DNA of 64,000 nucleotides from Rariglobus sp. (GTDB lineage Bacteria; Verrucomicrobiota; Verrucomicrobiia; Opitutales; Opitutaceae). Location: contig JAQSWS010000014.1 in NCBI GenBank assembly GCA_029266495.1, positions 1-64,000 on the forward strand, read 5' to 3'. Positions 38,043 through 49,867 of the stretch are shown here, piece by piece. Below the pieces are notes generated by a model. The model saw nothing but the letters and a program-made list of their open reading frames with translations. It ran no database searches and was not told where the DNA came from. Each line of letters opens with the position of its first letter. Position 1 is the stretch's first letter. The position numbers and the translations under genes are program-made.

Positions 38043-38749
38043 ACACGTTTCGCCCCTTCAGCCTCGTCCTGGTTTTTCTCGCCTGCGTGGTTTCCGTTGT
38101 CACCGCCGGGACGAACAAGAAGCCTGAGAACCCCCCGCCGGTCGTGCCCTCCAATGCGCCGCTGGAGCCGGGGATGATTCCGTGCGGCAACCTCATCTAC
38201 GCGGGCAACCGCAGTTCGGTGTGTTTCGCCGATAAATTCCTCACCGATGCCGCGGGAGCCACCACGGTGAAGGTGGAAAAACGATTCCGGGCCGTGCGCC
38301 TCGACGCGGACAACCTCTTCGATCTGCCGTTCTGCGTGTTTTCGGGCGAGGACGCTTTCACGCTCACGGAACGCGAGCGCAAGAACCTGCGCCACTACCT
38401 GCTCAACGGCGGCTTTCTCCTCTCGAGCCCGAGCTGCTCGAACGAGGCCTGGGACAAGTCGCTTCGCAAGGAGCTCGAGCTCGCGCTTCCCGAATACAAG
38501 CTCAACAAGATCCCGATGACGCACCCGGTGTTCTCGGTGCTCAACAAAATCGACACCCTGAAATGCAAGAACGGCAACACCGCCCTGCTCGAGGGGCTCG
38601 AGGTCAACGGACGTCTGGTGATGATCCATTCGAAGGAAGGGCTCAACGACGTCGGCAACGCCAAGGGCTGCTGCTGCTGCGGCGGCAACGAGATCCTCAA
38701 GTCGGCCGCGGTGAACGTGAACATCCTGACTTATGTGCTCCTGTATTGA
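38039..38749 (+). CDS. DUF4159 domain-containing secreted protein
   Basis: 236 aa with a signal peptide (1-23). The DUF4159 body has 'FDLPFCVFSGEDAFTLTERE', 'LLNGGFLLSSPSCSNEAW' and 'YKLNKIPMTHPVFSVL', in line with the family, which adopts a GATase1/flavodoxin-like fold in MoxR-VWA operons. A run of four cysteines in 'NAKGCCCCGGNEI' (about 210-222) is odd and may bind metal or heme. It overlaps the preceding gene as ATGA and ends 4 bases before the next possible start. Confidence 0.85.
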   Translation: MNTFRPFSLVLVFLACVVSVVTAGTNKKPENPPPVVPSNAPLEPGMIPCGNLIYAGNRSSVCFADKFLTDAAGATTVKVEKRFRAVRLDADNLFDLPFCVFSGEDAFTLTERERKNLRHYLLNGGFLLSSPSCSNEAWDKSLRKELELALPEYKLNKIPMTHPVFSVLNKIDTLKCKNGNTALLEGLEVNGRLVMIHSKEGLNDVGNAKGCCCCGGNEILKSAAVNVNILTYVLLY

Positions 38750-38753
38750 GCGG

Positions 38754-40235
38754 ATGGGCGATTCGCTCCGTGCAGGGCTCGACCTCGTGTCGAGCCGGTT
38801 GGGCGTGCGCCGCCGGAAAGACGACGCGGCCTCACGCGAGGTGAGGCCCTGCGCGGGAACCGCTGCCGCCGCGACTCTGCTGCTCGCGTTCTCCCTGCTC
38901 CTCGGCGGCTGCCGTCCGGGCGGAACGGCTGGCACCAACGCGGACGAAGAGACGACCGTGCCTCTTTTCTTCACCTCGAACACACACGGCCGGCTGACGC
39001 ATTGCGGGTGTTTCAGCGGTCAATACGGCGGGCTCGCCCGGTTGCACACCGCAGTGGCGGTCGGACCGTTTTCCGGCGCTTTCGGTGTCGATCTCGGCGA
39101 CGCGCTGGAGGGGCCGGAGGATTACCAGTTGCTGAAATACAAGCAGGTGCTGAAGGCGTATTCGGAAATGAATTACGCCGTGCTCAATGCCGGGCAGCGC
39201 GAGGCGGGACTGCCGGCGGAGACATTGCGTGCGGTGGCGGCCTCGTCGCCCGTGCCGCTGGTCAGCGCCAACCTCCTTGATCGCCGCACCGGCCGGCCGG
39301 TGCTGCCGGCCTGGACGATCGTCAAGCAAGGTGGGAAACGCATCGCTTTCGTCGGAGTGGTCGATCCGCGCGGGCTGGAGGACACGCTGGGGGCGGGGCT
39401 GACCGTGGAGGACATGACGACGAGCCTGGGGCGCATTTTGCCGGAGGTGACGCGCGAGGCTGATGCACTGGTGCTGCTGGCGTTCACCGACGAGGCGACG
39501 CTGACCGCGCTCGCGCGGCAGTTCTACGAATTCAGCCTCGTTCTCGGGGGCAAGGTGAGCCAGCCGGCGCAGGCGTTGCAGCGCGAGGGACAGGTGTATG
39601 TTTACTACACGGCCAACGAGGCGAAATCGTTTGGCACGCTTGAGCTGGTGTTTCCCCCGGAGGGAAAACCACGGGTCGGGCGGCATGCGATCACCTTGCT
39701 CGATCAACGCTACATGGAACACGACAAGGTGCTGTCGCTGGTGCGCGCCTATCAGCGCGAAGTGGGACAGGCGACGCTGGCGGTGGATTCGCTTGATCAT
39801 GCGATGGCCGGGCAGGTGCCGGGCACGCGCGCGGCGGCGAGTTATGTCGGCACCCAAGCCTGCATGATGTGCCACCCCGGTGCGGCCGCGGCGTGGCAGC
39901 GGAGCGCCCACTCGCAGGCGTTTGAGGTGCTGGTGGCCAAGGGGGCGGACACCGACCCCTCCTGCATCGGCTGTCATACGGTGGGCTTTGGAACGCCTTC
40001 GGGTTATCGACGTGAATATGGCGCGGCCAAACTTGCCCATGTCGGTTGCGAGAGCTGCCACGGCCCTGGCAGCACGCACGTCGCGCAACGTCAAAGCGGT
40101 GGCGAAATCACCGCGCATTTCCGCCCGCTTGGCCCGGGCGACTGTTTAAAATGTCACCACGGAGAATTCAGCCGCCCCTTCGACTGGGAAAAATTCTGGC
40201 CGCATATCCAGCACGGAAAGGAACCCAAACGATGA
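38754..40235 (+). CDS. Lipoprotein: degenerate 5'-nucleotidase/metallophosphatase domain fused to a tetraheme cytochrome c554-like domain
   Basis: 493 aa from the ATG at 38754. A lipobox LLLGGC (Cys53) follows a 30-residue leader that overlaps a palindromic element, so a GTG at 38841 giving a normal lipoprotein signal is a good alternative. Residues about 65-350 follow the UshA-type metallophosphatase fold ('FFTSNTHGRLTHCGC', 'GVDLGDALEG', 'LVSANLL'), but the GNHE motif reads 'NAGQREAG' and the final GHxH is 'GGKV', so the metal site is lost. Four CxxCH heme motifs follow: CMMCH, CIGCH, CESCH and CLKCH, in cytochrome c554 order. It should sit in the periplasm on a membrane anchor as an electron carrier. 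Confidence 0.85.
   Translation: MGDSLRAGLDLVSSRLGVRRRKDDAASREVRPCAGTAAAATLLLAFSLLLGGCRPGGTAGTNADEETTVPLFFTSNTHGRLTHCGCFSGQYGGLARLHTAVAVGPFSGAFGVDLGDALEGPEDYQLLKYKQVLKAYSEMNYAVLNAGQREAGLPAETLRAVAASSPVPLVSANLLDRRTGRPVLPAWTIVKQGGKRIAFVGVVDPRGLEDTLGAGLTVEDMTTSLGRILPEVTREADALVLLAFTDEATLTALARQFYEFSLVLGGKVSQPAQALQREGQVYVYYTANEAKSFGTLELVFPPEGKPRVGRHAITLLDQRYMEHDKVLSLVRAYQREVGQATLAVDSLDHAMAGQVPGTRAAASYVGTQACMMCHPGAAAAWQRSAHSQAFEVLVAKGADTDPSCIGCHTVGFGTPSGYRREYGAAKLAHVGCESCHGPGSTHVAQRQSGGEITAHFRPLGPGDCLKCHHGEFSRPFDWEKFWPHIQHGKEPKR
38772..38852. repeat. Compound palindromic element at the start of the cytochrome gene
   Basis: Outer arms GCAGGGC (38772-38778) and GCCCTGC (38846-38852) enclose two perfect 8-bp hairpins: GGCTCGAC/GTCGAGCC (38776-38796) and GGCCTCAC/GTGAGGCC (38828-38848), each with a 5-base loop. 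The nested symmetry is like a REP/BIME-type unit. It lies within the possible N-terminal codons of the cytochrome gene. Confidence 0.75.
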
Positions 40236-41866
40236 CCCGGCACTGCAAAACAACACGGCTAGGCGCGCTCCGGCTCAATCCACTTTGTCACTTATTAAGT
40301 GACAAGTTGTCCGGATGGGTGGACGCATTTTTTGCACAGGCACAGGCACAGGCACAGGCGCAGGTGCAGACGAAGAGGGGGCGGGCGAGGGTGGTGGTGG
40401 CGCTGATGGTTGCTTCGTCGGCTGCACCGGGGGTCGGAGCGCTGCCTTCGGTCGAGGCGGTGGAGACGGTCTGGTCTGCGAAGCTGCCGGAGTTTCGCGC
40501 CGACACGCCGGTCGAGGCGGCGCCCACGGTGCTGTATTTCACGGCGACGTGGTGCGGCTACTGTCACCAGATGGACCGCACGACCCTGAGCAACGACAAG
40601 GTGCACTTACAACTGGCGCCCTTCGGACGCATCAAACTCGATTACGATCAGCAACCTGAACTCGTGGCCCGTTATCAGATCCGCGGCGTGCCCGCCTTCG
40701 TGATGGTCAATGCCCGGGGCGAGGAAGTCTCCCGGTTGGTGGGCGCGGCCGAAGTGGGCCCGTTTTGCAGCTGGCTCGAAGAAGGCAAAATCCGGGCTGC
40801 CGGCATGGTGAAAGAAGCGGCCAGGCGGCAGGCCGAACTCCAGGCATTGGCGGAGATGCTGACCATCGGCGGCACCGAAGGCTGGGCAAAAACGAAGGCG
40901 CAGATTTTCGAGCTGGCGGCGCGCGGGGGGCCGGAGGCCCGGGAGTATGCCCTGAAACAATTGACCATGCGGGCCGGACTGAGGCCGTCCGCGCTTTTTG
41001 AGGGACTGTTGCATCCCGACCTGGCGGTGCGCCTGGCCGTGACCGGCATATTGAAAAAGGCTTTGGGGGAACGGTTCGTATTTGATCCTTGGGCGGACGC
41101 GGCGACACGGGAGACGGTGGTGCGTGACGAGCAATTTGCGATGTTCGCCGACATGTCGGTATCGGTTGTCGTTGAAGCGCGTTTTGTGGAAATCAAGGCG
41201 CCGATTCCGGCCGGGGGCGCGCTGGGCTTTCTCGCGACGGCCGTCCAGCAGCCGCCGGGCGCGGTGGTCGGCGTGCTGTCGTCGGAGGAAACCGCCGCTG
41301 TCCTGGCCGGAGTGAAGGCACTCAAGGGAACCTCGGTGATGAATGCGCCCAAGGTCACCGTGGGCTCCGGGAACCCGACGCGCATGGTCATCGGACAGGA
41401 GATGCGCCATCCGATCCGCTGGCAGAAAAATCCGGAAGGCCCCGGTTGGTTGCCGGCGGATTACGAGACCAGGACGGTTGGCGTGGAAATGAGCGTGACT
41501 CCGCAAGTGCAGGTGGACGGGGCCATCGAGCTGGACGTGAAGCCGAAGATCACGGAGTTCGAGGGGTTCGTCGAATTTGCGGAGGCGGCGGGCGCGGATG
41601 ACAACGGGCCCGCGTTCGTCACGTTGAACGGGAAGCCGATGCAGGTGAAACCGCCGTTTACGCCTCTGTTCAGCGAACGCGCGGTGACGGCGGGCGTGCG
41701 CGTGCCCCCGGGGCGCACGGTGGTGCTGCAGGGCGGGCCGAAAAAGCAGATTTCGTGGCCGCTCGCGGGCGGCGGGCGGCCATCCGAAACGACGAGTGAT
41801 GCGAGTTCGGTTACGTTGATTTTTGTAACGGCGGCGGTGCAGGCGCCGGCAAAAAACGGGCGCTGA
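40232..41866 (+). CDS. Thioredoxin-fold protein fused to a secretin-homology domain
   Basis: 544 aa from an ATG that overlaps the upstream stop as ATGA. A GTG at 40364 would give a 500-aa protein with a cleaner signal peptide ('KRGRARVVVALMVASSA'). The thioredoxin fold holds 'YFTATWCGYCHQMD' (CGYC at 108-111) and cis-Pro loop 'IRGVPAFV'. After an alpha-helical region (about 175-310), residues 320-530 resemble the beta domain of secretins: 'VVEARFVEI', 'VIGQEMRHPIRW', 'VGVEMSVTPQVQVDG', 'ITEFEGFVEF' and 'GRTVVLQGG'. A similar module ends the BlaR1 homologue at 46013. It may be a periplasmic redox partner of the cytochrome. Confidence 0.8.
   Translation: MTRHCKTTRLGALRLNPLCHLLSDKLSGWVDAFFAQAQAQAQAQVQTKRGRARVVVALMVASSAAPGVGALPSVEAVETVWSAKLPEFRADTPVEAAPTVLYFTATWCGYCHQMDRTTLSNDKVHLQLAPFGRIKLDYDQQPELVARYQIRGVPAFVMVNARGEEVSRLVGAAEVGPFCSWLEEGKIRAAGMVKEAARRQAELQALAEMLTIGGTEGWAKTKAQIFELAARGGPEAREYALKQLTMRAGLRPSALFEGLLHPDLAVRLAVTGILKKALGERFVFDPWADAATRETVVRDEQFAMFADMSVSVVVEARFVEIKAPIPAGGALGFLATAVQQPPGAVVGVLSSEETAAVLAGVKALKGTSVMNAPKVTVGSGNPTRMVIGQEMRHPIRWQKNPEGPGWLPADYETRTVGVEMSVTPQVQVDGAIELDVKPKITEFEGFVEFAEAAGADDNGPAFVTLNGKPMQVKPPFTPLFSERAVTAGVRVPPGRTVVLQGGPKKQISWPLAGGGRPSETTSDASSVTLIFVTAAVQAPAKNGR
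40285..40305. repeat. Dispersed palindromic repeat, copy 3
   Basis: The same 21-bp core as copies 1 and 2. It would be read as 'CHLLSDKL' if the thioredoxin-fusion gene starts at 40232, so it is either translated or shows that the true start lies further downstream. Confidence 0.9.
40334..40369 (+). repeat. Hexanucleotide tandem repeat (GCACAG)n
   Basis: Six units of GCACAG, four perfect and two with a single change, in frame to encode alternating Ala-Gln near the N-terminus of the thioredoxin fusion. Slippage would change length by whole codon pairs without a frameshift. Confidence 0.8.
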
Positions 41867-41913
41867 GAAAACTTGGATTGGCGAAGCATGGCAGGCTGAT
41901 GACGTGATTGGAC

Positions 41914-41974
41914 GGAGGTTGAATGAATGGCGGTCTCAACCTCCCTGGGCTCACGCTCAGGACCACGAGGGAGG
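41914..41974 (+). repeat. Multi-hairpin element after the thioredoxin-fusion gene
   Basis: GGAGGTTGA (41914-41922) pairs with TCAACCTCC (41936-41944). The same CCTCCC can instead pair with GGGAGG (41969-41974), so the two stems exclude each other. The second loop holds a 25-base sequence (41943-41967) that recurs at 6457-6481 with three differences. It could end transcription of the MoxR operon or regulate the next gene. Confidence 0.6.
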
Positions 41975-42017
41975 ACCGGCACGTGACCGGGGTCTGCGCA
42001 TAAGCAGGCTTGAGGCG

Positions 42018-42974
42018 ATGAGCGGACGGGCGTTTAGTTCAACGCGAATGGCTCACGTTTCCCCGAAACTCGACGAATTGCTCATGGATGATTGCCATGT
42101 GCGCTGTGCGCTTCGGCTGCTCAAGGAGCTCAACGACGATCTCTCGCTGCGTGCCAAGGCCATCCAGCAGTCTTGCAGTTCCCGCACGCGTTTCCTGCCC
42201 ACGATCGGCCGTCCCGATGAACTGGCCGCCTTGGAATCAGCGCGTGAGGAACTGGCGAAAGCCGCCTCGGCGCAGGAGACGATGGTCAGGTTGCATGCAC
42301 TGATCGACGTGGACCTGGGCAATGAACTGGAAAGCCATGTGCGAACGGCGTCACCCGCGTATCTGCGCGGATTGTCGGCGCTGAACAGCCTGCTCGCGTG
42401 GCCGGGCCTGCTCGACAAGCTTGCTGAAAAGCTGGCGGTGTTGCTCCACGCGCTCGGCATGGCGCGCAACATGGCGTCGTCCGGATACGACTGGCAGCGG
42501 CGCACCTTTTCGCCCGCCGCCAACGAGGCGATCCAGAAGGCGCGCACGGCCGCTCACGAGTTGGACGAGATGGTTCTCCTGGTGAACATCCGCTCCGACC
42601 AGCATCAGCTTGAAATCTTGAACACACCGCAGGCCGCGGCGGTGTTGCCCCGCGTGCCGGTGGTCGGGTTTGAAGTGAGAATCGAACGCATGCAGAGCCT
42701 GGGCATCGCCGACGTGCAGGCGGAGTTCAACCGGATCCTGGAGATGTGCGGGATGCTGGAGTCGACCGGCTTGATGGGGTTGCGGGAGACGGCGGAGCGG
42801 GTGGTGGCGTTGCACGGGGAACTTTCGCGCGCCTACCTGCAGACTTATCTCGGACAACTGCGCGCCTACATGGACGAGCACCGGCTGGATCCCAATCAAA
42901 CGACGGCCCGGATTCACCGGCTGCAGCTCCAGTATCTGGGGGCGGTGAATTTTCCGTATGAGATGGGGATGTGA
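42018..42974 (+). CDS. Hypothetical alpha-helical protein
   Basis: 318 aa from the ATG at 42018; an ATG at 42048 (MAHVSPKL) is equally possible. The whole chain is predicted by eye to be helical, with heptad-like Leu/Ala spacing, and has no signal peptide or membrane segment. No family motif is recognised. It is preceded by a multi-hairpin element and followed after 88 bases by the sigma-factor gene, so it may be a single transcription unit. Confidence 0.65.
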   Translation: MSGRAFSSTRMAHVSPKLDELLMDDCHVRCALRLLKELNDDLSLRAKAIQQSCSSRTRFLPTIGRPDELAALESAREELAKAASAQETMVRLHALIDVDLGNELESHVRTASPAYLRGLSALNSLLAWPGLLDKLAEKLAVLLHALGMARNMASSGYDWQRRTFSPAANEAIQKARTAAHELDEMVLLVNIRSDQHQLEILNTPQAAAVLPRVPVVGFEVRIERMQSLGIADVQAEFNRILEMCGMLESTGLMGLRETAERVVALHGELSRAYLQTYLGQLRAYMDEHRLDPNQTTARIHRLQLQYLGAVNFPYEMGM

Positions 42975-43062
42975 GCGGCCGGCCGGTGCGGGAAATTCTT
43001 CTGATCCATTGAACCTTTTGCGGTGACCGGCATTCCTCTGGGGGTGACCGCTTGCACCCCGT

Positions 43063-43632
43063 ATGTCCTCCGCACCTGAATCCGAGCTCCTTCCGGTGGC
43101 CCTGGCCCGTGCGGGTGATTCGGACGCGTGGCACCGGTTGCTGCGTCGTTATCAACTGCCGCTTTTTACTTTTGTGCAGGAGCTCGTGCGTCATGAAGCC
43201 ACCAGTTTCGACCTTGTGCAGGCGACCTTCGTTCGCGCGGTGCGGCACATCGGCACGCTGCGCGACGATGTGCGGTTTGGGAGCTGGTTGTTTGGGATCG
43301 CCCACCAGCTTTGCGTGCAACACTGGCGGCGGTCGGGGCGCGAGCAGCCTCTCGGGGATCTGCTCGATGCAACGCCTGACGACAACGTGCCGGATCCGCG
43401 CGACCTGGTGTTGCGCGCCGAGCAGGGCGAGGCGCTGCTCGCGCTGGTGGACGCGTTGCCGCCACCCCAGCGCGCCGTGCTTGTGTTGCATGTGCTCGAG
43501 GAATTTTCGCTCGAAGAGATTTCCGGGATCACCGGTGCGCCGCTCGGCACGGTGAAATCCCGCCTCCACCACGCCAAGCGCGCCCTGCGCGAACGCCTCC
43601 AACTCAATCCTCCCGATGCCCTCGCCACGTGA
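43063..43632 (+). CDS. ECF-type RNA polymerase sigma factor
   Basis: 189 aa. Region 2 is seen around 'FDLVQATFVRAVRHIG' and 'FGSWLFGIAHQLCVQHWRR'. Region 4 is 'ALVDALPPPQRAVLVLHVLEEFSLEEIS' in parts (PPPQRAVLVLHVLEEFS) with the helix-turn-helix 'ITGAPLGTVKSRLHHAKRAL'. It should direct RNA polymerase to a small set of promoters, probably including its own. It overlaps the next gene by 17 bases. Upstream, GGTGACCG occurs twice with 21-bp spacing (43022 and 43043). Confidence 0.92.
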   Translation: MSSAPESELLPVALARAGDSDAWHRLLRRYQLPLFTFVQELVRHEATSFDLVQATFVRAVRHIGTLRDDVRFGSWLFGIAHQLCVQHWRRSGREQPLGDLLDATPDDNVPDPRDLVLRAEQGEALLALVDALPPPQRAVLVLHVLEEFSLEEISGITGAPLGTVKSRLHHAKRALRERLQLNPPDALAT

Positions 43633-44038
43633 TATCCTCCTCGCCCGCCATGGTGCGGCGGAACCCCGCCTTGATGTTTTGCGCGCCACGGTCCTGGCCC
43701 GTGTCGAACCGACGTTGAATCGACGCGCCTCGTTGCTGACTACATTGCGCGCGGTCTGGCGTGAGCTGGTCGTGCCCTGCCGTCCTGTCTGGATGACGCT
43801 TGCCGCCGTGTGGGCGGTGTTGCTCGTGCTCAATGGCACCGGCCGTTCTCGCGGAGAAGCCCCGGTGTTCTCCGCGAACGAAATCACCGCAGCCATGACG
43901 CAGTGGGTCGAGCGGCGGCGCGTGCTTGCGGAGCTGGCGGCCCCCGCCGCCACGCCTGCGCGGAAGCCGCCCGAGGCGGGGATTCCGGGCCATTCGCATC
44001 TGCCGTCCGTCACGGCGACCACCCGCAGTGCGTGCTAA
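43616..44038 (+). CDS. Small single-pass membrane protein, possible anti-sigma factor
   Basis: 140 aa, overlapping the sigma-factor gene by 17 bases. One hydrophobic helix (about 58-74, 'VWMTLAAVWAVLLVLNG') divides a basic N-terminal part from a Pro/Ala-rich C-terminal part. Genes that overlap an ECF sigma factor and encode a single-pass membrane protein are often its anti-sigma factor, but the zinc-finger motif (HxxxCxxC) is absent. The assignment rests on position and topology only. Confidence 0.6.
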   Translation: MPSPRDILLARHGAAEPRLDVLRATVLARVEPTLNRRASLLTTLRAVWRELVVPCRPVWMTLAAVWAVLLVLNGTGRSRGEAPVFSANEITAAMTQWVERRRVLAELAAPAATPARKPPEAGIPGHSHLPSVTATTRSAC

Positions 44039-44050
44039 TCACCGTTTTTT

Positions 44051-45529
44051 ATGAACAACCCCGTGCGTCCCTCGTTTCCCCGTCGTTTTTTCAGGTGGCT
44101 TTTGAGCTGGCGCAATGCCCGCCGGGCGCTCATTGCCGCCGCATGCCTGGTCACGTTCATCGTGGCGGTGTTTGTGGTCGAGGGCTGGCGCGGGCGCCGT
44201 GCCTGGGCCGAGGTGAATGAGCTGGCGCGCAGCCGCGGCGAGGTGCTTTCCATAGCGCCACTCGTGCCCCCGCCGGTCCCGGCGGACGAGAACTTTGCCG
44301 CCGCGCCGGTGATCGCGGCGCTATTCAGTTCCGATGCAAATATCGCCCAGGCGGCGGCGGAGCGCTGGACGCTGCCCCAGCCGGCCGATGGCAAAAAGGA
44401 GCCCGGCTTCGGCCTGCAGAAAGACCCGGGTGTCAGCGTGCTCGATGCCTGGCGTGCGTATCTGGGCACGGATGACGTGCTGGCCTCCCTGGACCGTTAT
44501 GCCGCGGACATTGATGAAATCTCGGCTGCCGCGCTGCGGCCGCATGCGCGGTTTCCCATTCGGTATGAAGATGGCTTCGCGGCCAGCCTGCCTCACGTCG
44601 GACCGATTCAGAAGATCTCTCGAATCATTCGTTTACGGGCGGAGGCGCGGCTTGAGCGCGGGCTTGAGCCCGGGCTGGCGCGCGAGGCGGCAGGTGACCT
44701 GGCCACCCTGTTGCGGCTGGCCAGGCTGGTGAACGAAGAACCGACGCTCATCAGCCAGCTCGTGGCGCGATCCATCGTCGTCCAGGCCATGCCGCTCGTG
44801 GGAGCAGGACTTGCGACTGGCGCATGGTCGGACGCGGACCTGGCGTTGCTTGAAGTGGAGCTGGCGCGATTGGATCTGGTGCGTTCCGGCTGGCGCTCGT
44901 TGCGGGGTGAACTCGCGGGGGTTTCGACGATATTCATGCAGTTTGTCCGCGAGCCTGAGGTGATCGGCACCGCAGTAGCGATGGTGGGTTCCGCTCCCAG
45001 TGTCGCCTCCCGTGTGGTGCCCCAATGCATTCCATCCGGGTGGATCTATCAGAACGCCACGCGGGTCGCCCACCTGTATCTGGATGAGATTCTGCCGGCC
45101 TATGACGAGAAGTCTCGCCGTGTTGATTTCGCGCGGCTCCAGGCGCTGGATGAGAGGATGCGGACGAACCGTGGCAGGTCGCCGTATCGTGTGCTGGCCG
45201 ACATGCTCATGCCGGCGATGCAGAACTTGGGCGCCAACTTCGCCGCGGGGCAGACGCAGGTGGACTTCGCGCGGATCGCGATCGAGCTCGAGCGCTGGAA
45301 GAATACCCACGGCACGTATCCGCAAACGCTGGCGGAGCTGCCGGCGACCGTGGCCGGGCTGCGTGATTATGCGACGGGCGAAGCGCTTCGTTACCGGCGC
45401 AACGACGACGGGACCTACCTTCTTTATGCGACGGGCGCCGACGCGGTGGATGACGGCGGGTCCGCGCCGAAAGGCAGCGGCTCCAACGCCCATGCGACCA
45501 AGGGCGATTGGGTGTGGCTGCCGCGTTGA
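44051..45529 (+). CDS. Hypothetical membrane-anchored protein of the sigma-factor operon
   Basis: 492 aa. A basic leader and one membrane helix (about 27-45) anchor a large, mostly helical periplasmic domain. The C-terminal segment 'LERWKNTHGTYPQTLAELP', followed by 'LRYRRNDDGTYLLYATG', occurs in many uncharacterised Verrucomicrobiota/Planctomycetota proteins and recalls the end of pseudopilins. It starts 12 bases after the small membrane protein and likely belongs to the sigma regulon. Function unknown. Confidence 0.7.
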   Translation: MNNPVRPSFPRRFFRWLLSWRNARRALIAAACLVTFIVAVFVVEGWRGRRAWAEVNELARSRGEVLSIAPLVPPPVPADENFAAAPVIAALFSSDANIAQAAAERWTLPQPADGKKEPGFGLQKDPGVSVLDAWRAYLGTDDVLASLDRYAADIDEISAAALRPHARFPIRYEDGFAASLPHVGPIQKISRIIRLRAEARLERGLEPGLAREAAGDLATLLRLARLVNEEPTLISQLVARSIVVQAMPLVGAGLATGAWSDADLALLEVELARLDLVRSGWRSLRGELAGVSTIFMQFVREPEVIGTAVAMVGSAPSVASRVVPQCIPSGWIYQNATRVAHLYLDEILPAYDEKSRRVDFARLQALDERMRTNRGRSPYRVLADMLMPAMQNLGANFAAGQTQVDFARIAIELERWKNTHGTYPQTLAELPATVAGLRDYATGEALRYRRNDDGTYLLYATGADAVDDGGSAPKGSGSNAHATKGDWVWLPR

Positions 45530-45546
45530 TCACTCCAGAGGACATA

Positions 45547-45562
45547 TGCTAAAAAATTAGCA
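45547..45562. promoter_or_regulatory. BlaI-type operator, distal box
   Basis: Palindrome TGCTAA-AAAA-TTAGCA. The same half sites occur in the proximal box 46 bases downstream (centre to centre). It lies upstream of the -35 of the blaI-like gene. Confidence 0.75.
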
Positions 45563-45570
45563 CGTCAGGA

Positions 45571-45598
45571 TTGACATGGTCCGTGGCTGGTGTGCTAA
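45571..45598 (+). promoter_or_regulatory. Promoter of the BlaI/BlaR1 pair
   Basis: A perfect TTGACA (45571-45576) is 16 bases from TGCTAA (45593-45598), which takes the -10 place and is also the left half of the proximal operator. A start about 7 bases on would fall at or just before the ATG at 45608. Confidence 0.55.
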
Positions 45599-45608
45599 GA
45601 AATTAGCA
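45593..45608. promoter_or_regulatory. BlaI-type operator, proximal box over the start codon
   Basis: Palindrome TGCTAA-GAAA-TTAGCA, whose last base is the A of the blaI-like ATG. A bound repressor would cover the -10 and start site, which fits tight autoregulation. Confidence 0.75.
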
Positions 45609-45988
45609 TGAAACCGAAGCCCGATCATCTTAGCCGGAGGGAGCGTCAGATCATGGACATCATTTACAGGCGCGGGGAGGCGACGGCGGCGGACGTGCAG
45701 GCGGCGCTGCCCGACGCTCCGGGCTACTCGGCCGTCCGCGCTCTGTTGCGTATCCTCGAGGACAAGGGCGTCTTGAAACACCGGGAGGAGGGGCCGCGCT
45801 ATGTTTATCTGCCCACGCAGGCTCCCGAGCAGGCGCGGCGGTCGGCATTGAAACGGGTTGTGAGCACGTTTTTCGAGGGGTCGTTGGTCAGCGCGGTCGC
45901 CGCGCTGGTGGATTCGGCCGACGACAAGCTTGACCCCGAGGAGCTGCGCCGCCTCGAGGCGATCATCAAGAAAGCCAAGTCCAAGTAA
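45608..45988 (+). CDS. BlaI/MecI/CopY family repressor
   Basis: 126 aa. The start 'MKPKPDHLSRRERQIMDIIY' and the winged helix 'GEATAADVQAAL...YSAVRALLRILEDKGVL' (ellipsis mine) are standard BlaI. In this family the repressor binds as a dimer to palindromes and is cut at the N-terminal/C-terminal junction by the partner protease. Two matching palindromes sit upstream, one over the start codon. The M56 protease gene follows after 24 bases. Nothing here points to a beta-lactamase; the pair probably senses another envelope stress. Confidence 0.93.
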   Translation: MKPKPDHLSRRERQIMDIIYRRGEATAADVQAALPDAPGYSAVRALLRILEDKGVLKHREEGPRYVYLPTQAPEQARRSALKRVVSTFFEGSLVSAVAALVDSADDKLDPEELRRLEAIIKKAKSK

Positions 45989-46012
45989 CCGATTTTACCG
46001 CACGTTTATCCC

Positions 46013-47800
46013 ATGAATCTTTCAAGTCACCTCCCCCTGTTCGTCGATTTGATGCTGAAAAGCGCCGTGGTGCTGGTGTTGGCCCTGCTGGCCGCGCGGA
46101 TGTGGGGCCGCGCTTCCGCGGCCAACCGTCACATGATCTGGCTGGCGGCGTTCGGGGCGCTGTTGGTGCTGCCGCTGACGGTGACTCTGCTTCCGGACGA
46201 AGGCGTGCGCTCTGTCGATGCGGGGGCCATGCTGGTGCTCAAGGTTCCGGCTGGGCCGGTGATGACGGGCGTCTTGGGACTGCCGCCGCCAGTTGTCGCG
46301 CCAGCATCACAACCGGTCGCGAAGCGCGTCTGGTCCGTGCCCGTGTGGCGCGATGGACTGGTGCTCGTCTGGCTGGGCGGAGTGGCGGCGCTTCTCGGCT
46401 GGCGGATGGTCGGGGCGGTGCGGCTGCGGTTGCTGAGGCAGAGGGGCGCACTGGTCTGCGACACGCGGATCATGGAGTGGTGCGAGCGGATCGCTGCCGA
46501 CCACAAAATCAGGCGGACAGTGGAACTGCGCGTATCCGATGAATGCCACGTGGCGATGACGTGGGGGACGCTGCGGCCGGTCGTGATGCTGCCGGTGGCA
46601 GCATTCGCGTGGACGGATGAACGGCTTGGGTTGGTATTGCACCACGAACTCGCTCACGTGCGCCGGGGCGATTGCCTCGCGCGATTTTTCAGTCAGGTGG
46701 CGTGTGCGTTTTATTGGCCGAATCCATTGGTATGGCTGGCGGCGCGCCGGGCGCGGCTCGCCCAGGAACAGGCGTGCGATGATCGGGTGCTCGCGGCGGG
46801 TGTGGGTGCCGAGGCCTATGCGATGGAACTGGTGGCCGCCGTGCGCGACTTGAACGGCCGGAGTTGGTTCGGCGGAGCGGTGGCGATGGCGGAACCTTCG
46901 ACGTTGGAGAGCCGCGTGCTCGGCATTGTTGGCGAGGGGCGTGACCGGTGTGCGTTGCGCGGCTTGACGATTGCCGCGGCTTCGGTGTGCGCGGCGCTCG
47001 CGCTGGTTGGGTGTTCACAAGTGACAGTGAGGGACGAACCCAAGCCGGCGGGGACGACTGAAAGGGGCGAGTCGGTGGAGATCCGAAGCTGGTTCGTCGA
47101 GTTCAGGGACGAGGAGCCGGGGACGAAGGAGGCGATGGCGTTTTTGGACGGCGCCAGCCGGAAGGGATCGGATACGGCGGTAGTCGCAGGTGTTCTGACG
47201 GAAGCGCAGGCCGCGGTCGCGATCAAGCGGCTCGCCGGGCTTCATGGCGCCGATTTATTGAGCACGCCAGCAGTCAGCGTGCGCGCGGGCAGCCCGGCGA
47301 GGATCCAAGTAGGCCAGGAGTTCCGTTATCCAACCCACTGGGAAAAGGATCCGGCAGGCCGTGAGTGGATTGCTTCGGCATTCCAGACGCGGAACATGGG
47401 CGTGGAGATGGAGGTGGTGCCACGGATGAACGAGGATGGATCCATCGACCTCGATATGAATCCCCAGATCACCGGGTTTGAGGGTTTCATCGAACAGGAG
47501 ATGCGGGATGTCGCCCCCGGGAAGGATAATGCATCGAACGATGAGGAAAAAACCGAGGTGTCGTGGCCGAAGGTGAAGATGCCGTTATTCAGGACGCACG
47601 CGGTGCAGGCAGCGGTTGCGCGGCTGGCGCCCGGGCAGATGGTCGTGCTCCGCTGCGGCACACGGATGGAGAACGTGAGGGATACCACGACCACGTTGCA
47701 GGGAAAGGTGTCGGCGGATCAGCTTAGCTTGAGGCCTGTTTCCTTGCTGGTGTTTGTATCGGCGAAGATCGTTTCCTCCACGGGTGAGGCAATCCCGTGA
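46013..47800 (+). CDS. BlaR1-like M56 metalloprotease with C-terminal secretin-homology domain
   Basis: 595 aa. Membrane helices lie near 14-32, 41-60 and 113-131. The zinc protease motif is HHELAHVRRGD (210-220), with a further 'QEQACDDRVLA'. A fourth helix (about 325-340) crosses back. The domain after it (350-595) is not the penicillin-binding domain of BlaR1. It has 'LLSTPAVSVRAGSPARIQVG', 'EFRYPTHWEKDP', 'GVEMEVVPRMNEDGS', 'ITGFEGFIEQ' and 'GQMVVLRCG', as in secretin beta domains. It should sense a periplasmic signal with this domain and cleave the BlaI-type repressor. Confidence 0.87.
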   Translation: MNLSSHLPLFVDLMLKSAVVLVLALLAARMWGRASAANRHMIWLAAFGALLVLPLTVTLLPDEGVRSVDAGAMLVLKVPAGPVMTGVLGLPPPVVAPASQPVAKRVWSVPVWRDGLVLVWLGGVAALLGWRMVGAVRLRLLRQRGALVCDTRIMEWCERIAADHKIRRTVELRVSDECHVAMTWGTLRPVVMLPVAAFAWTDERLGLVLHHELAHVRRGDCLARFFSQVACAFYWPNPLVWLAARRARLAQEQACDDRVLAAGVGAEAYAMELVAAVRDLNGRSWFGGAVAMAEPSTLESRVLGIVGEGRDRCALRGLTIAAASVCAALALVGCSQVTVRDEPKPAGTTERGESVEIRSWFVEFRDEEPGTKEAMAFLDGASRKGSDTAVVAGVLTEAQAAVAIKRLAGLHGADLLSTPAVSVRAGSPARIQVGQEFRYPTHWEKDPAGREWIASAFQTRNMGVEMEVVPRMNEDGSIDLDMNPQITGFEGFIEQEMRDVAPGKDNASNDEEKTEVSWPKVKMPLFRTHAVQAAVARLAPGQMVVLRCGTRMENVRDTTTTLQGKVSADQLSLRPVSLLVFVSAKIVSSTGEAIP

Positions 47801-47807
47801 TGACGGA

Positions 47808-48026
47808 TTAAGCGGTCTTCTCGTTCGAGAAGACCTGCTGCACGTCGTCGTGGTGCAGGAACTCACCGGCGCGGTCGTCGGTGGTGATGACGTCGTCTGC
47901 GCCGGCCTGCTGGCGTTTGACCTTAGGCCATTTGTTAATGGCCAGCCATGGGCGGAGAGGAGGACGGATGGACCGGAGGACAGGAAGCCGGAGAATGGAA
48001 GGGCGGGGGCGCCGGATTTCCGTCAT
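47808..48026 (-). CDS. Possible small protein downstream of yidC
   Basis: 72 codons from an ATG at 48026, 26 bases after the yidC stop. The last 43 residues ('INKWPKVKRQQAGADDV', then acidic 'GEFLHHDDVQQVFSNEKTA') look like real protein by composition and codon use. The first 28 are Arg/Pro-rich and overlap a 7-bp hairpin (GCCGGAT/ATCCGGC, 48012-48032), so a shorter form with a non-ATG start is possible. No family known. Confidence 0.35.
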   Translation of the reverse strand: MTEIRRPRPSILRLPVLRSIRPPLRPWLAINKWPKVKRQQAGADDVITTDDRAGEFLHHDDVQQVFSNEKTA

Positions 48027-48052
48027 CCGGCTTCCGCCCTCCGGCCGTCCGT

Positions 48053-49867
48053 TTAGTTCTTCTTCGGGGGCGTGACGTTCTTGATCTTTTTGCCGCCTTT
48101 GCCGGTGCCACTGGGGACGCCGAGCGGGGTGGGGGTGGGATCGGTCTTGGTGTATTTGTTCACCACGATCTGCTGGCCGATGGTGAAGAGGCCGTTGATC
48201 GTCGAGTAGAGGGCGAGCGCGCAGGAGAAGTTGTAGCAGATCGCCGTGAAGAAGAACGGCATGAACTTGAAGATCTTCGCCTGCATGTTGTCCGTCGTGG
48301 GCGACGGGGTGAGCTTCATCTGGAAATACATGGTCACGCCCATGAGCAGCGGCATGATGTTCAGGGGGAGCCCGAAGATGCGCATCACGGTGTCCGGCGC
48401 GGAGAGGTCCTTCGCCCAGAGGAAGCCCTGGAACCGCAGCTCGGCGGTGCCCTGAAGCATCGTGAAGAAGCCGATGAAGAGCGGGATTGTAATGAGAATC
48501 GGGATACAGCCGCCGGCCGGGTTCACCTTGTGCTCCTTGAAGAGCTCCATGGTGGCCTGGTTCATCTTCTGGGGGTTGTCCTTGTATTTCTCGCGCACGG
48601 CCTGCATGAGCGGCTGGAGCTTCTGCATGCGCTTGGCGGACTTTGACGCGGCGAGCGTGAAGGGCAGTGAGATGACCTTGAGGAGGATCGTCATCAGGAT
48701 GATCGCGATGCCCCAGTTGCCCACGAAGTCGTAGGTCCACTTCATCAGCTTGTTGAGGGTGGGGGCGACGATGCCGCTGAGGAAAATTTTCCCCATGCCC
48801 TGGCTGAACTGCATGATCAGGTCTTCACGATGGCCGAAGGTGTCGAGGCGGGTGTATTCCTTCGGGCCGACGTAGAGTTCGCCGGCAAGGAGGGTGGAGG
48901 CCGAGGGGGCAAGGGCGGGGAGATCGAAGCGCGAGGCGGCGGTCAGGCCGATCGTCTCTTGCGTGGAGCCGGGGAGCGGGGGCAGTTTGATGAGGCGGAC
49001 GAACACGCCGACGCCGGGATTCTCGGGGGTGAAGATGCTGGCGAAAAACTGGTTTTTGACCGAGGCCCACACGGTTTTTTCCGTGCGTTCGAGGTAGGGC
49101 AGGTCGGCGCGATTGCCGACGCCGACGGAGCTCAGCACGCCGCCGCCCTGGAGATCGCTGCGATCGACGAAATGAGCGTCCTCGCCGTCATAAGTCGCAA
49201 CATTGAGATACTGGCCGGCGTCGTTGCCATCGATGAGGCTGGTGGTGCCGAGATTGATCGTCGTGCGGGGGAGCGCCGTGGTCTCTCCGGTGAGGTTGCG
49301 AAACGTGGTTTCGTGACGGATGCGATAGGGATCGCCCGTGGTGTCGCCGGGGGCGCGCAGCACATAACGGCGGGTGACTTCGAGGCGGTTTTCAAACACC
49401 GCGCGGTAGATCACCTCGGTGGCGGTGGCGCTGACCAGCGTGAAGCGCGTGCGGTGATCGAGACCGGGGAAATCGTTGAAGGAGAGGATCGGCGCGGCGT
49501 GGAGGCGATTGAAGACGAAGGGCTCGGGGTTTCCCTGGGTGGCCGCGTAGTTTTTGAAGGCGACATCGCGGATCGCGCCGCCGAAATCGGTGAGGCGCAG
49601 TTCAACATGATCGTTGGCGAGCGTGGTGATGGTGGCGTCGGCGTTTTCACCGACGAGTGCGGCAAACGTGGCGCTGGGGGCGGCGGGCGCGGGCGGTGCG
49701 CTGATCGTTGCGGTGCCGGCGGGCTGGCCTTCGACCGCCGGAGTGGCAGGCGTTGAGGCGGGAGTCGCGGCCGGAGGGGCGACGGGCTCCGGACGCGGGG
49801 CCAGATAGAGGCTGGCAAACCCGACGAGCAGGAGGAGGACGCCGATGGTCGTGTTCTTTTTATCCAT
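48053..49867 (-). CDS. yidC: Membrane protein insertase YidC
   Basis: 604 aa. An N-terminal helix (6-25) and Pro/Ala-rich linker lead to a large periplasmic beta domain (about 60-370). The conserved insertase core then has 'YDFVGNWGIAIILMTILLKV', 'KSAKRMQKLQPLMQAVREKY' and 'NPAGGCIPILITIPLFIGFF', with a Lys-rich tail. YidC inserts and folds inner-membrane proteins with or without SecYEG. It is last in the conserved rpmH-rnpA-yidD-yidC order. Confidence 0.97.
   Translation of the reverse strand: MDKKNTTIGVLLLLVGFASLYLAPRPEPVAPPAATPASTPATPAVEGQPAGTATISAPPAPAAPSATFAALVGENADATITTLANDHVELRLTDFGGAIRDVAFKNYAATQGNPEPFVFNRLHAAPILSFNDFPGLDHRTRFTLVSATATEVIYRAVFENRLEVTRRYVLRAPGDTTGDPYRIRHETTFRNLTGETTALPRTTINLGTTSLIDGNDAGQYLNVATYDGEDAHFVDRSDLQGGGVLSSVGVGNRADLPYLERTEKTVWASVKNQFFASIFTPENPGVGVFVRLIKLPPLPGSTQETIGLTAASRFDLPALAPSASTLLAGELYVGPKEYTRLDTFGHREDLIMQFSQGMGKIFLSGIVAPTLNKLMKWTYDFVGNWGIAIILMTILLKVISLPFTLAASKSAKRMQKLQPLMQAVREKYKDNPQKMNQATMELFKEHKVNPAGGCIPILITIPLFIGFFTMLQGTAELRFQGFLWAKDLSAPDTVMRIFGLPLNIMPLLMGVTMYFQMKLTPSPTTDNMQAKIFKFMPFFFTAICYNFSCALALYSTINGLFTIGQQIVVNKYTKTDPTPTPLGVPSGTGKGGKKIKNVTPPKKN

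Follow-up and report, generated by a model that had tools for sequence, protein, structure and literature searches.

A secretin-derived module at the sensor position of a BlaR1-like protease in Rariglobus and its relatives

Background

What is a piece of a secretion gate doing at the end of a membrane protease of the BlaR1 type, a protein known as an antibiotic sensor? The question is raised by a stretch of 64,000 nucleotides from Rariglobus sp. (assembly GCA_029266495.1, contig JAQSWS010000014.1, positions 1 to 64,000; the whole of this stretch is called the window here), in which a BlaR1-like protein, P0002, and a thioredoxin fusion, P0001, carry C-terminal tails that resemble each other. 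A sequence-only reading of the window had traced both tails to the beta-domain of secretins and had suggested that the two proteins bind one ligand or each other. We find that the tails are secretin-derived modules and that P0002 lies behind a BlaI-type repressor gene with a pair of putative operators, and we lean, by a modest degree, towards reading the two genes as a BlaI/BlaR1-type signalling operon in which a secretin beta-domain replaces the beta-lactam-sensing domain.

Results and Discussion

Two tails of secretin origin

The four features on which this part of the analysis turns are the following.

40232..41866, + strand: P0001, thioredoxin with a secretin-derived tail, 544 aa (PF13098 44.6 bits, PF00085 42.4 bits, PF00263 38.5 bits)
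41153..41863, + strand: secretin-derived tail of P0001, residues 308-544 (Pfam, BLASTP, alignment)
46013..47800, + strand: P0002, blaR1-like gene, M56 metalloprotease with a secretin-derived tail, 595 aa (PF05569 112.7 bits, PF00263 42.4 bits)
47063..47797, + strand: secretin-derived tail of P0002, residues 351-595, without a detected N-domain and without the LGxIPxLG motif (Pfam, alignment, predicted fold, motif search)

Both genes were confirmed as open frames at these coordinates, and both tails pass the Pfam cut-off for Secretin (PF00263, 27.5 bits) with 38.5 bits in P0001 and 42.4 bits in P0002, which bears out their proposed origin. Aligned to each other, the tails are 35% identical (78 of 222 columns; 122 bits, E 9e-34, BLASTP), a similarity well clear of background. 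The blocks that the sequence-only reading had listed are present in both proteins and only two of their letters need correction, IGQE in P0001 and MGVEM in P0002: the first protein has IGQEMRHP, VGVEMSVTP, ITEFEGFVE and GRTVVLQGG, the second VGQEFRYP, MGVEMEVVP, ITGFEGFIE and GQMVVLRCG. Among the NCBIfam secretin models the one that scores best is NF042912, built on the pilus secretin Amuc_1098, an Akkermansia protein; its matches are partial (58.8 bits for P0001, 81 bits for P0002) and far under the whole-protein cut-off of 750. Neither STN nor Secretin_N was found in P0001 or P0002 (Pfam, E up to 1), in keeping with the earlier remark that both lack N-domains. Genome-wide there are five PF00263 loci, namely P0001, P0002 and three others.

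For the tail of P0002 a structure was predicted with AlphaFold from an input alignment of eight modules, giving a predicted local distance difference test score (pLDDT) of 72.8 and a predicted template modelling score (pTM) of 0.69. Secretins rank first in both structure searches with this model: in Foldseek the first 39 rows are secretins by title (E 9.7e-8 to 1.2e-3, the next row 2.5e-2), and in VIA-align 28 secretin entries have Z 7.8-9.8, with the best non-secretin row at 5.0. The predicted tail of P0002 thus has the secretin fold, and the Pfam, BLASTP, Foldseek and VIA scores together rule out chance or convergence as the source of the similarity between the tails. A control model of the beta-domain of a secretin from the same genome was too poor for use (pLDDT 54.0, pTM 0.38), so what the tails have lost is judged here by sequence alignment rather than by structure.

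When the eight modules are aligned with four secretins, the module begins where the beta-domain begins, and all eight modules show a gap behind the first strand and are also without the LGDIPxLGxLF segment near the end. The LGxIPxLG motif, which we take to be the outer-membrane amphipathic loop, is absent from all 23 fusion, thioredoxin and solo proteins tested, P0001 and P0002 included (the C-terminus of the G491 protein is cut at the end of its locus). It is found in 66 of the 71 distinct non-M56 frames whose strong match to the module profile extends into its C-terminal part; a strict pattern recognises 55 of the 66 and a relaxed one the other 11, and some of the 66 are cut N-terminally by locus or contig ends. 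Of the five frames without it, three are solo proteins and two are the thioredoxin fusions. With no N-domain detected and LGxIPxLG missing, the P0002 tail probably forms no outer-membrane pore. Eight columns are invariant in the alignment of eight modules (A1), and the blocks kept in the tails rank with the best-conserved ones of Amuc_1098-type secretins. By the description of InvG in PMC6155069, the inner gate of that secretin is built from strands 4-7, and we infer that the tail blocks GQExRYP and TEFEGF fall in these inner-gate strands.

A BlaR1-like protein and its operon

The remaining parts of the P0002 gene and its neighbourhood are listed below.

45547..45562, no strand assigned: putative operator O1, TGCTAAAAAATTAGCA, one of only two places in the genome (4.89 Mb) with an exact TGCTA-N6-TAGCA, with similar pairs upstream of blaI in relatives
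45571..45576, + strand: TTGACA, possible -35 box between O1 and O2 (sequence; TTG-containing boxes here in several relatives)
45593..45608, no strand assigned: putative operator O2, TGCTAAGAAATTAGCA, sharing one base with the start codon of blaI (sequence, relatives)
45608..45988, + strand: blaI, winged-helix repressor of the BlaI/MecI family (PF03965 97.3 bits), 24 bases before blaR1
46643..46657, + strand: HELAH zinc motif, residues 211-215 of P0002, with EQACD further on at residues 252-256 (motif search)
47003..47014, + strand: LVGC, residues 331-334, lipobox-like and possibly processed, close to where the last hydrophobic stretch ends (sequence; also in G017)

P0002 has an M56 domain, an HExxH motif with a downstream glutamate and a neighbouring BlaI-type repressor, all three of them features of the BlaR1/MecR1 family. 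The tail, as had been proposed, occupies the BlaR1 sensor position, behind intact M56 motifs (HELAH, EQACD) and a preceding BlaI gene. No transpeptidase family was found in P0002 (Pfam, E up to 1) and hence no penicillin-binding sensor, and the model NF000326 matches only over its positions 98-252 of 585, with 79.7 bits against a cut-off of 400. In Staphylococcus aureus, on the account in PMC9834060, BlaR1 cleaves BlaI directly, and signal peptidase cuts it between the last helix and the sensor, that is, in the matching linker.

The dyads O1 and O2 likely flank the blaI promoter; a sigma-70 consensus scan of 45400-48100 gave no match over threshold. Their spacing is 46 in the window and 42-46 across the loci with exactly two sites. 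Both exact sites in the genome lie at blaI, and a one-mismatch search of the same genome added 12 further sites, with 233 in a reversed control. A wider BlaI regulon was thus sought with both patterns, of which the exact one gave no site beyond the operon itself in this genome. With exact operators at its own promoter only, the predicted regulon is the operon itself, and P0002 is probably both the sensor and the main regulated product.

The whole-genome operator search, an exact-pattern search that would miss weaker operators, covered this genome and 15 others, 12 of which have an M56-secretin fusion. Exactly two exact operators, both upstream of the fusion gene, were found in seven of the 12 (G413, G437, G405, G586, G298, G384 and G013), and G017 has the upstream pair and one stray exact site. 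Genome-wide there are no exact operators in G001, G008 and G010, which belong to the same genus and in which no M56-secretin gene was found. The dyad also precedes BlaI genes whose M56 partner lacks a secretin tail (L149, L152), and it is therefore a feature of this BlaI group and not of the tail.

Distribution of the fusion

Relatives were searched with a hidden Markov model of the eight modules, four of whose rows come from the fusions listed here, and with another of six M56 halves. The large surveys scored only three or four candidates per genome, and the counts are lower bounds. Full-length relatives of P0002 among 56 genomes are those of G017 (49% identity) and G013. Proteins joining an M56 domain to the tail occur in at least 18 genomes from nine families of the class (G000, which is the window's own genome, G017, G013, G384, G298, G143, G413, G437, G405, G586, G507, G705, G430, G640, G498, G491, G574 and G536) and in one further genome of the same phylum outside the class (G721), making at least 19 in all; the module matches in G405, G640, G430, G437, G498 and G574 are weak or partial (16-47 bits). 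As an independent check, Pfam Secretin exceeds its cut-off in 16 of the 19 M56 fusion proteins, including P0002 and L146, as well as in the thioredoxin fusion of G008 (33.5 bits) and the solo module of G001 (34.5 bits); the solo modules of G369 (26.3 bits) and G010 (20.2 bits) fall below it. HExxH is kept in all 18 M56 fusion proteins and E..CD in 17, the protein of G586 being without this pattern. In 14 of the 18 fusion genomes (G721 is outside this count) a BlaI match stands next to the M56 gene; the exceptions are G013, where a BlaI start stands behind its operator pair, G640, G536 and G498, whose frame begins at the start of its locus. A contig search with the single protein returned two matches, mainly to the M56 part and none to the module. 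M56 proteins with other C-terminal parts, such as the ankyrin repeats in L154, were common among the matches.

Several of these proteins have further peculiarities. The M56 protein of G298 carries two secretin-derived modules in tandem (L132:4573-7287), and extra domains occur in the M56-secretin proteins of L142, L143 and L147: those of G413 and G586 have LptD_N behind the secretin part and that of G705 has SLBB, both families known from outer-membrane export machines. Sub-threshold STN matches were seen in the proteins of G405 and G413. Near the BlaR1-secretin gene of G384, a frame (L131:1897-3411) opens as a secreted secretin-like module and continues into unrelated sequence.

Phylogeny and selection

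In the M56 tree a single clade (100/98) unites the five fusions found in the window's family, and it is nested in a clade of 11 fusions (98/94). The tails group differently. The tail of the G017 BlaR1 groups with two thioredoxin tails, with support of 100/98 in a larger module tree and 99/99 in a smaller one, and it is 50% identical to the thioredoxin tail of the window vs 35% to the BlaR1 tail. In approximately unbiased (AU) tests on the smaller tree, forcing the G000 and G017 tails together gave p 0.035 and forcing the five BlaR1 tails of the family together gave p 9e-9, values that are weakened by both groups having been named after the larger tree was seen. The larger tree has long branches and unsure forks; none was flagged in the smaller one, which includes only one of the two modules of G298. 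Because closely related BlaR1 halves carry tails that fail to group, the trees suggest that tails were exchanged on a stable BlaI-M56 chassis. The ratio of nonsynonymous to synonymous substitution rates (dN/dS), taken over four pairs, is 0.33-0.48 for the whole part behind M56 and 0.28-0.45 for the M56 halves; synonymous divergence (dS) runs from 0.14 to 1.46 and is high in most pairs, so these ratios are rough.

Function of the BlaR1 tail

If P0002 works as a BlaR1-type receptor, its tail would lie in the periplasm and act as the sensor. A change in its state, on binding a ligand or a part of a secretin or pilus, would open the cytoplasmic M56 site, which would cut BlaI; cleavage of BlaI would free O1 and O2 and so raise blaI-blaR1 itself. 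On this view the tail is a mobile module, one that was also joined to a thioredoxin and that stands alone in relatives.

Several observations weigh against this reading. The operator pair stands upstream of nine of the 18 fusion genes, all nine within the single M56 clade of 11. No exact operator was found anywhere in the genomes of G507, G705 and G536; in G430 one exact site lies a short way downstream of the fusion and a second on a different contig; and no pair was found in the locus sequences, the only ones searched, of G143, G640, G491, G574 and G498 (nor in that of G721, which does not count here). The Pfam Secretin score is below the cut-off in G143 (14.7 bits) and G721 (25.6 bits), and G491 had no match among those listed. 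The other seven fusions in the M56 tree lie elsewhere or are unresolved, which suggests that the fusion arose more than once, and one common function is for that reason not assured. Finally, solo tails exist in G001, G010 and G369, and a tail without a protease fits an effector as well as it fits a sensor.

That last point leads to the strongest competitor of the sensor reading, to which we give a clearly smaller share of belief: the tail would be an effector, freed by signal peptidase at the junction and active in the periplasm, where it might for instance cap or remodel secretin gates, while the BlaI loop only sets its amount. Exact operators confined to their own promoter, in the window's genome and in the seven other fusion genomes named above, would suit such a product. 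So would the solo copies, which look secreted or lipoprotein-like, two of them near a YidC-like gene as in the window (YidC being recognised by eye). The junctions after the last helix resemble the end of a signal peptide in five genomes, with a lipobox-like LVGC|S in G000 and G017 and with ALA|Q in G413, G437 and G405, and the cut made by signal peptidase in S. aureus BlaR1 falls at the matching linker (PMC9834060). However, the other 13 of the 18 junctions show no clear signal-peptide-end motif by eye, and the effector reading leaves unexplained why the protease was kept.

A special case of the sensor reading, on the analogy of PspB/PspC, is that the tail recognises secretin caught in the inner membrane, as subunits or as multimers, by joining its gate strands to those of the trapped protein; we consider it unlikely, and slightly more so than the effector. 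The high conservation, in Amuc_1098-type secretins, of the blocks that the tail has kept would suit this. No PspA/IM30 match was found in the window's genome (99.75% complete), with nine of 14 controls positive. In Yersinia, as described in PMC5596341, Psp proteins bind secretin multimers, and mislocalised secretin induces psp without significantly affecting other genes, a response that resembles a self-only regulon. On the other side, in nine of the 13 genus genomes other secretin matches occur in the absence of a tail of this kind, so that the tail is not needed for having a secretin; moreover, Psp ignores monomers, and the candidate tail would have to tell multimers apart.

Drawing these elements together by analogy, one may picture a BlaI/M56 watchdog over secretins, in which a pore-dead gate would sample secretin trapped in the inner membrane, the loop would raise only itself and the tail would cap stray pores, as a stand-in for Psp in bacteria without PspA, with the same gate reused on thioredoxin or as a free lipoprotein. 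So composite a picture is a speculative one, and we hold it a little more doubtful still than the detection of stray secretins by itself.

Much less probable is that P0002 is a BlaR1 of the usual kind, carrying as its tail a secretin fragment that has no function and is decaying. The part behind M56 is indeed less conserved than the protease half in four pairs, and tails seem from the trees to have been exchanged. Yet the frames are intact in at least 19 genomes, the eight modules share their eight invariant columns, the dN/dS values for the part behind M56 are those given above (rough, dS being high in most pairs), and a model of moderate confidence matches secretins.

The thioredoxin sibling

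The thioredoxin motif of P0001, WCGYC, is intact. G008 has a thioredoxin fusion with the tail at the syntenic locus, with the same neighbours and 57% identity. In G017 the neighbours are again the same, but the thioredoxin homologue stops soon after FSYDPW, before the module, where the window's protein continues into it. Among the 56 relatives the thioredoxin part and the tail were matched in one frame only in G000 and G008. No BlaI or BlaR1 gene lies in G008 between the syntenic genes and YidC (YidC and the gene of the type at 41904 were recognised by eye), and a search of G008 with P0002 gave no M56 match. Strong module matches among the 13 genus genomes, three of which are less than 90% complete, are confined to G000 (two), G008, G001 and G010 (one each), and several of the 13 also give weaker, partial matches. 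The solo module of G010 is lipoprotein-like and stands between the 41904-type gene and YidC (by eye), and that of G001 lies in the wider neighbourhood of this locus.

The second tail does lie some 4 kb from the first, as had been said (4.1 kb, from 41866 to 46013), but that the two tails bind each other or one ligand, as the linkage and their 35% identity might suggest, is the least probable of the readings, since the BlaR1 and thioredoxin fusions occur together in one of the 13 genus genomes only, the window's own, G008 and G017 each carry one without the other, and no BlaI operator, allowing up to one mismatch, was found near the thioredoxin gene. A functional pair was therefore rejected as the main explanation of the locus, and the sibling relation is better read as one module shuffled onto two chassis.

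Other genes of the neighbourhood may be recorded here. Upstream of P0001, at 38733-40235, is a gene with a Cytochrome_C554 domain (CxxCH motifs), whose stop is overlapped by the start of P0001 by four bases. The gene at 41904-42974 has no Pfam match; in G010 its homologue adjoins the solo module, and in G008 it is found close to YidC. At 43063-44038 an extracytoplasmic function (ECF) sigma factor gene is followed by an overlapping frame of 140 aa that has no Pfam match and might encode an anti-sigma factor. Elsewhere in the genome, a 306-aa frame (G000:C146:29848-30090) aligns with the module profile over its first third only (35.6 bits), and similar weak matches occur in G003, G004, G008 and G010.

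Comparison with known systems

In searches of the open-licence literature we found neither an M56-secretin nor a thioredoxin-secretin fusion described. As far as our searches reach, three things are new here: a secretin domain that lacks its membrane motif at the sensor place of BlaR1, an operator in the window's lineage that points only to its own operon, and an exchange of the domain with thioredoxin. Part of a secretion gate is borne by a BlaR1 chassis in nine families of the class, and also in one genome from outside it, which suggests that C-terminal domains of outer-membrane machines can be taken up by M56 proteases. In the window's lineage the compact operator makes the regulon readable from sequence, and the locus offers a concrete candidate for envelope surveillance in a bacterium where no PspA was found.

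Three known systems serve for comparison. With Psp (PspB/PspC) the operon may share the logic of a membrane sensor and a self-centred regulon, which is an analogy and no claim of homology. With the secretins of PF00263, nearest among them the Amuc_1098 model NF042912, the tails share the sequence and fold of the beta-domain and the blocks GQExRYP and TEFEGFVE; unlike those secretins, they are without a detected N-domain or LGxIPxLG, and they stand alone or form the end of a thioredoxin or of a membrane protease. The closest likeness in architecture is to BlaI/BlaR1 and MecI/MecR1 of S. aureus and Bacillus licheniformis, which likewise have a BlaI-family repressor directly upstream, an M56 domain with HExxH and a downstream glutamate, a C-terminal domain after the last helix and a dyad operator. 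The window's system differs from these in its operator, TGCTA-N6-TAGCA, for which no second exact target was found in the genome, and in its protein, which bears a secretin beta-domain instead of the penicillin-binding sensor.

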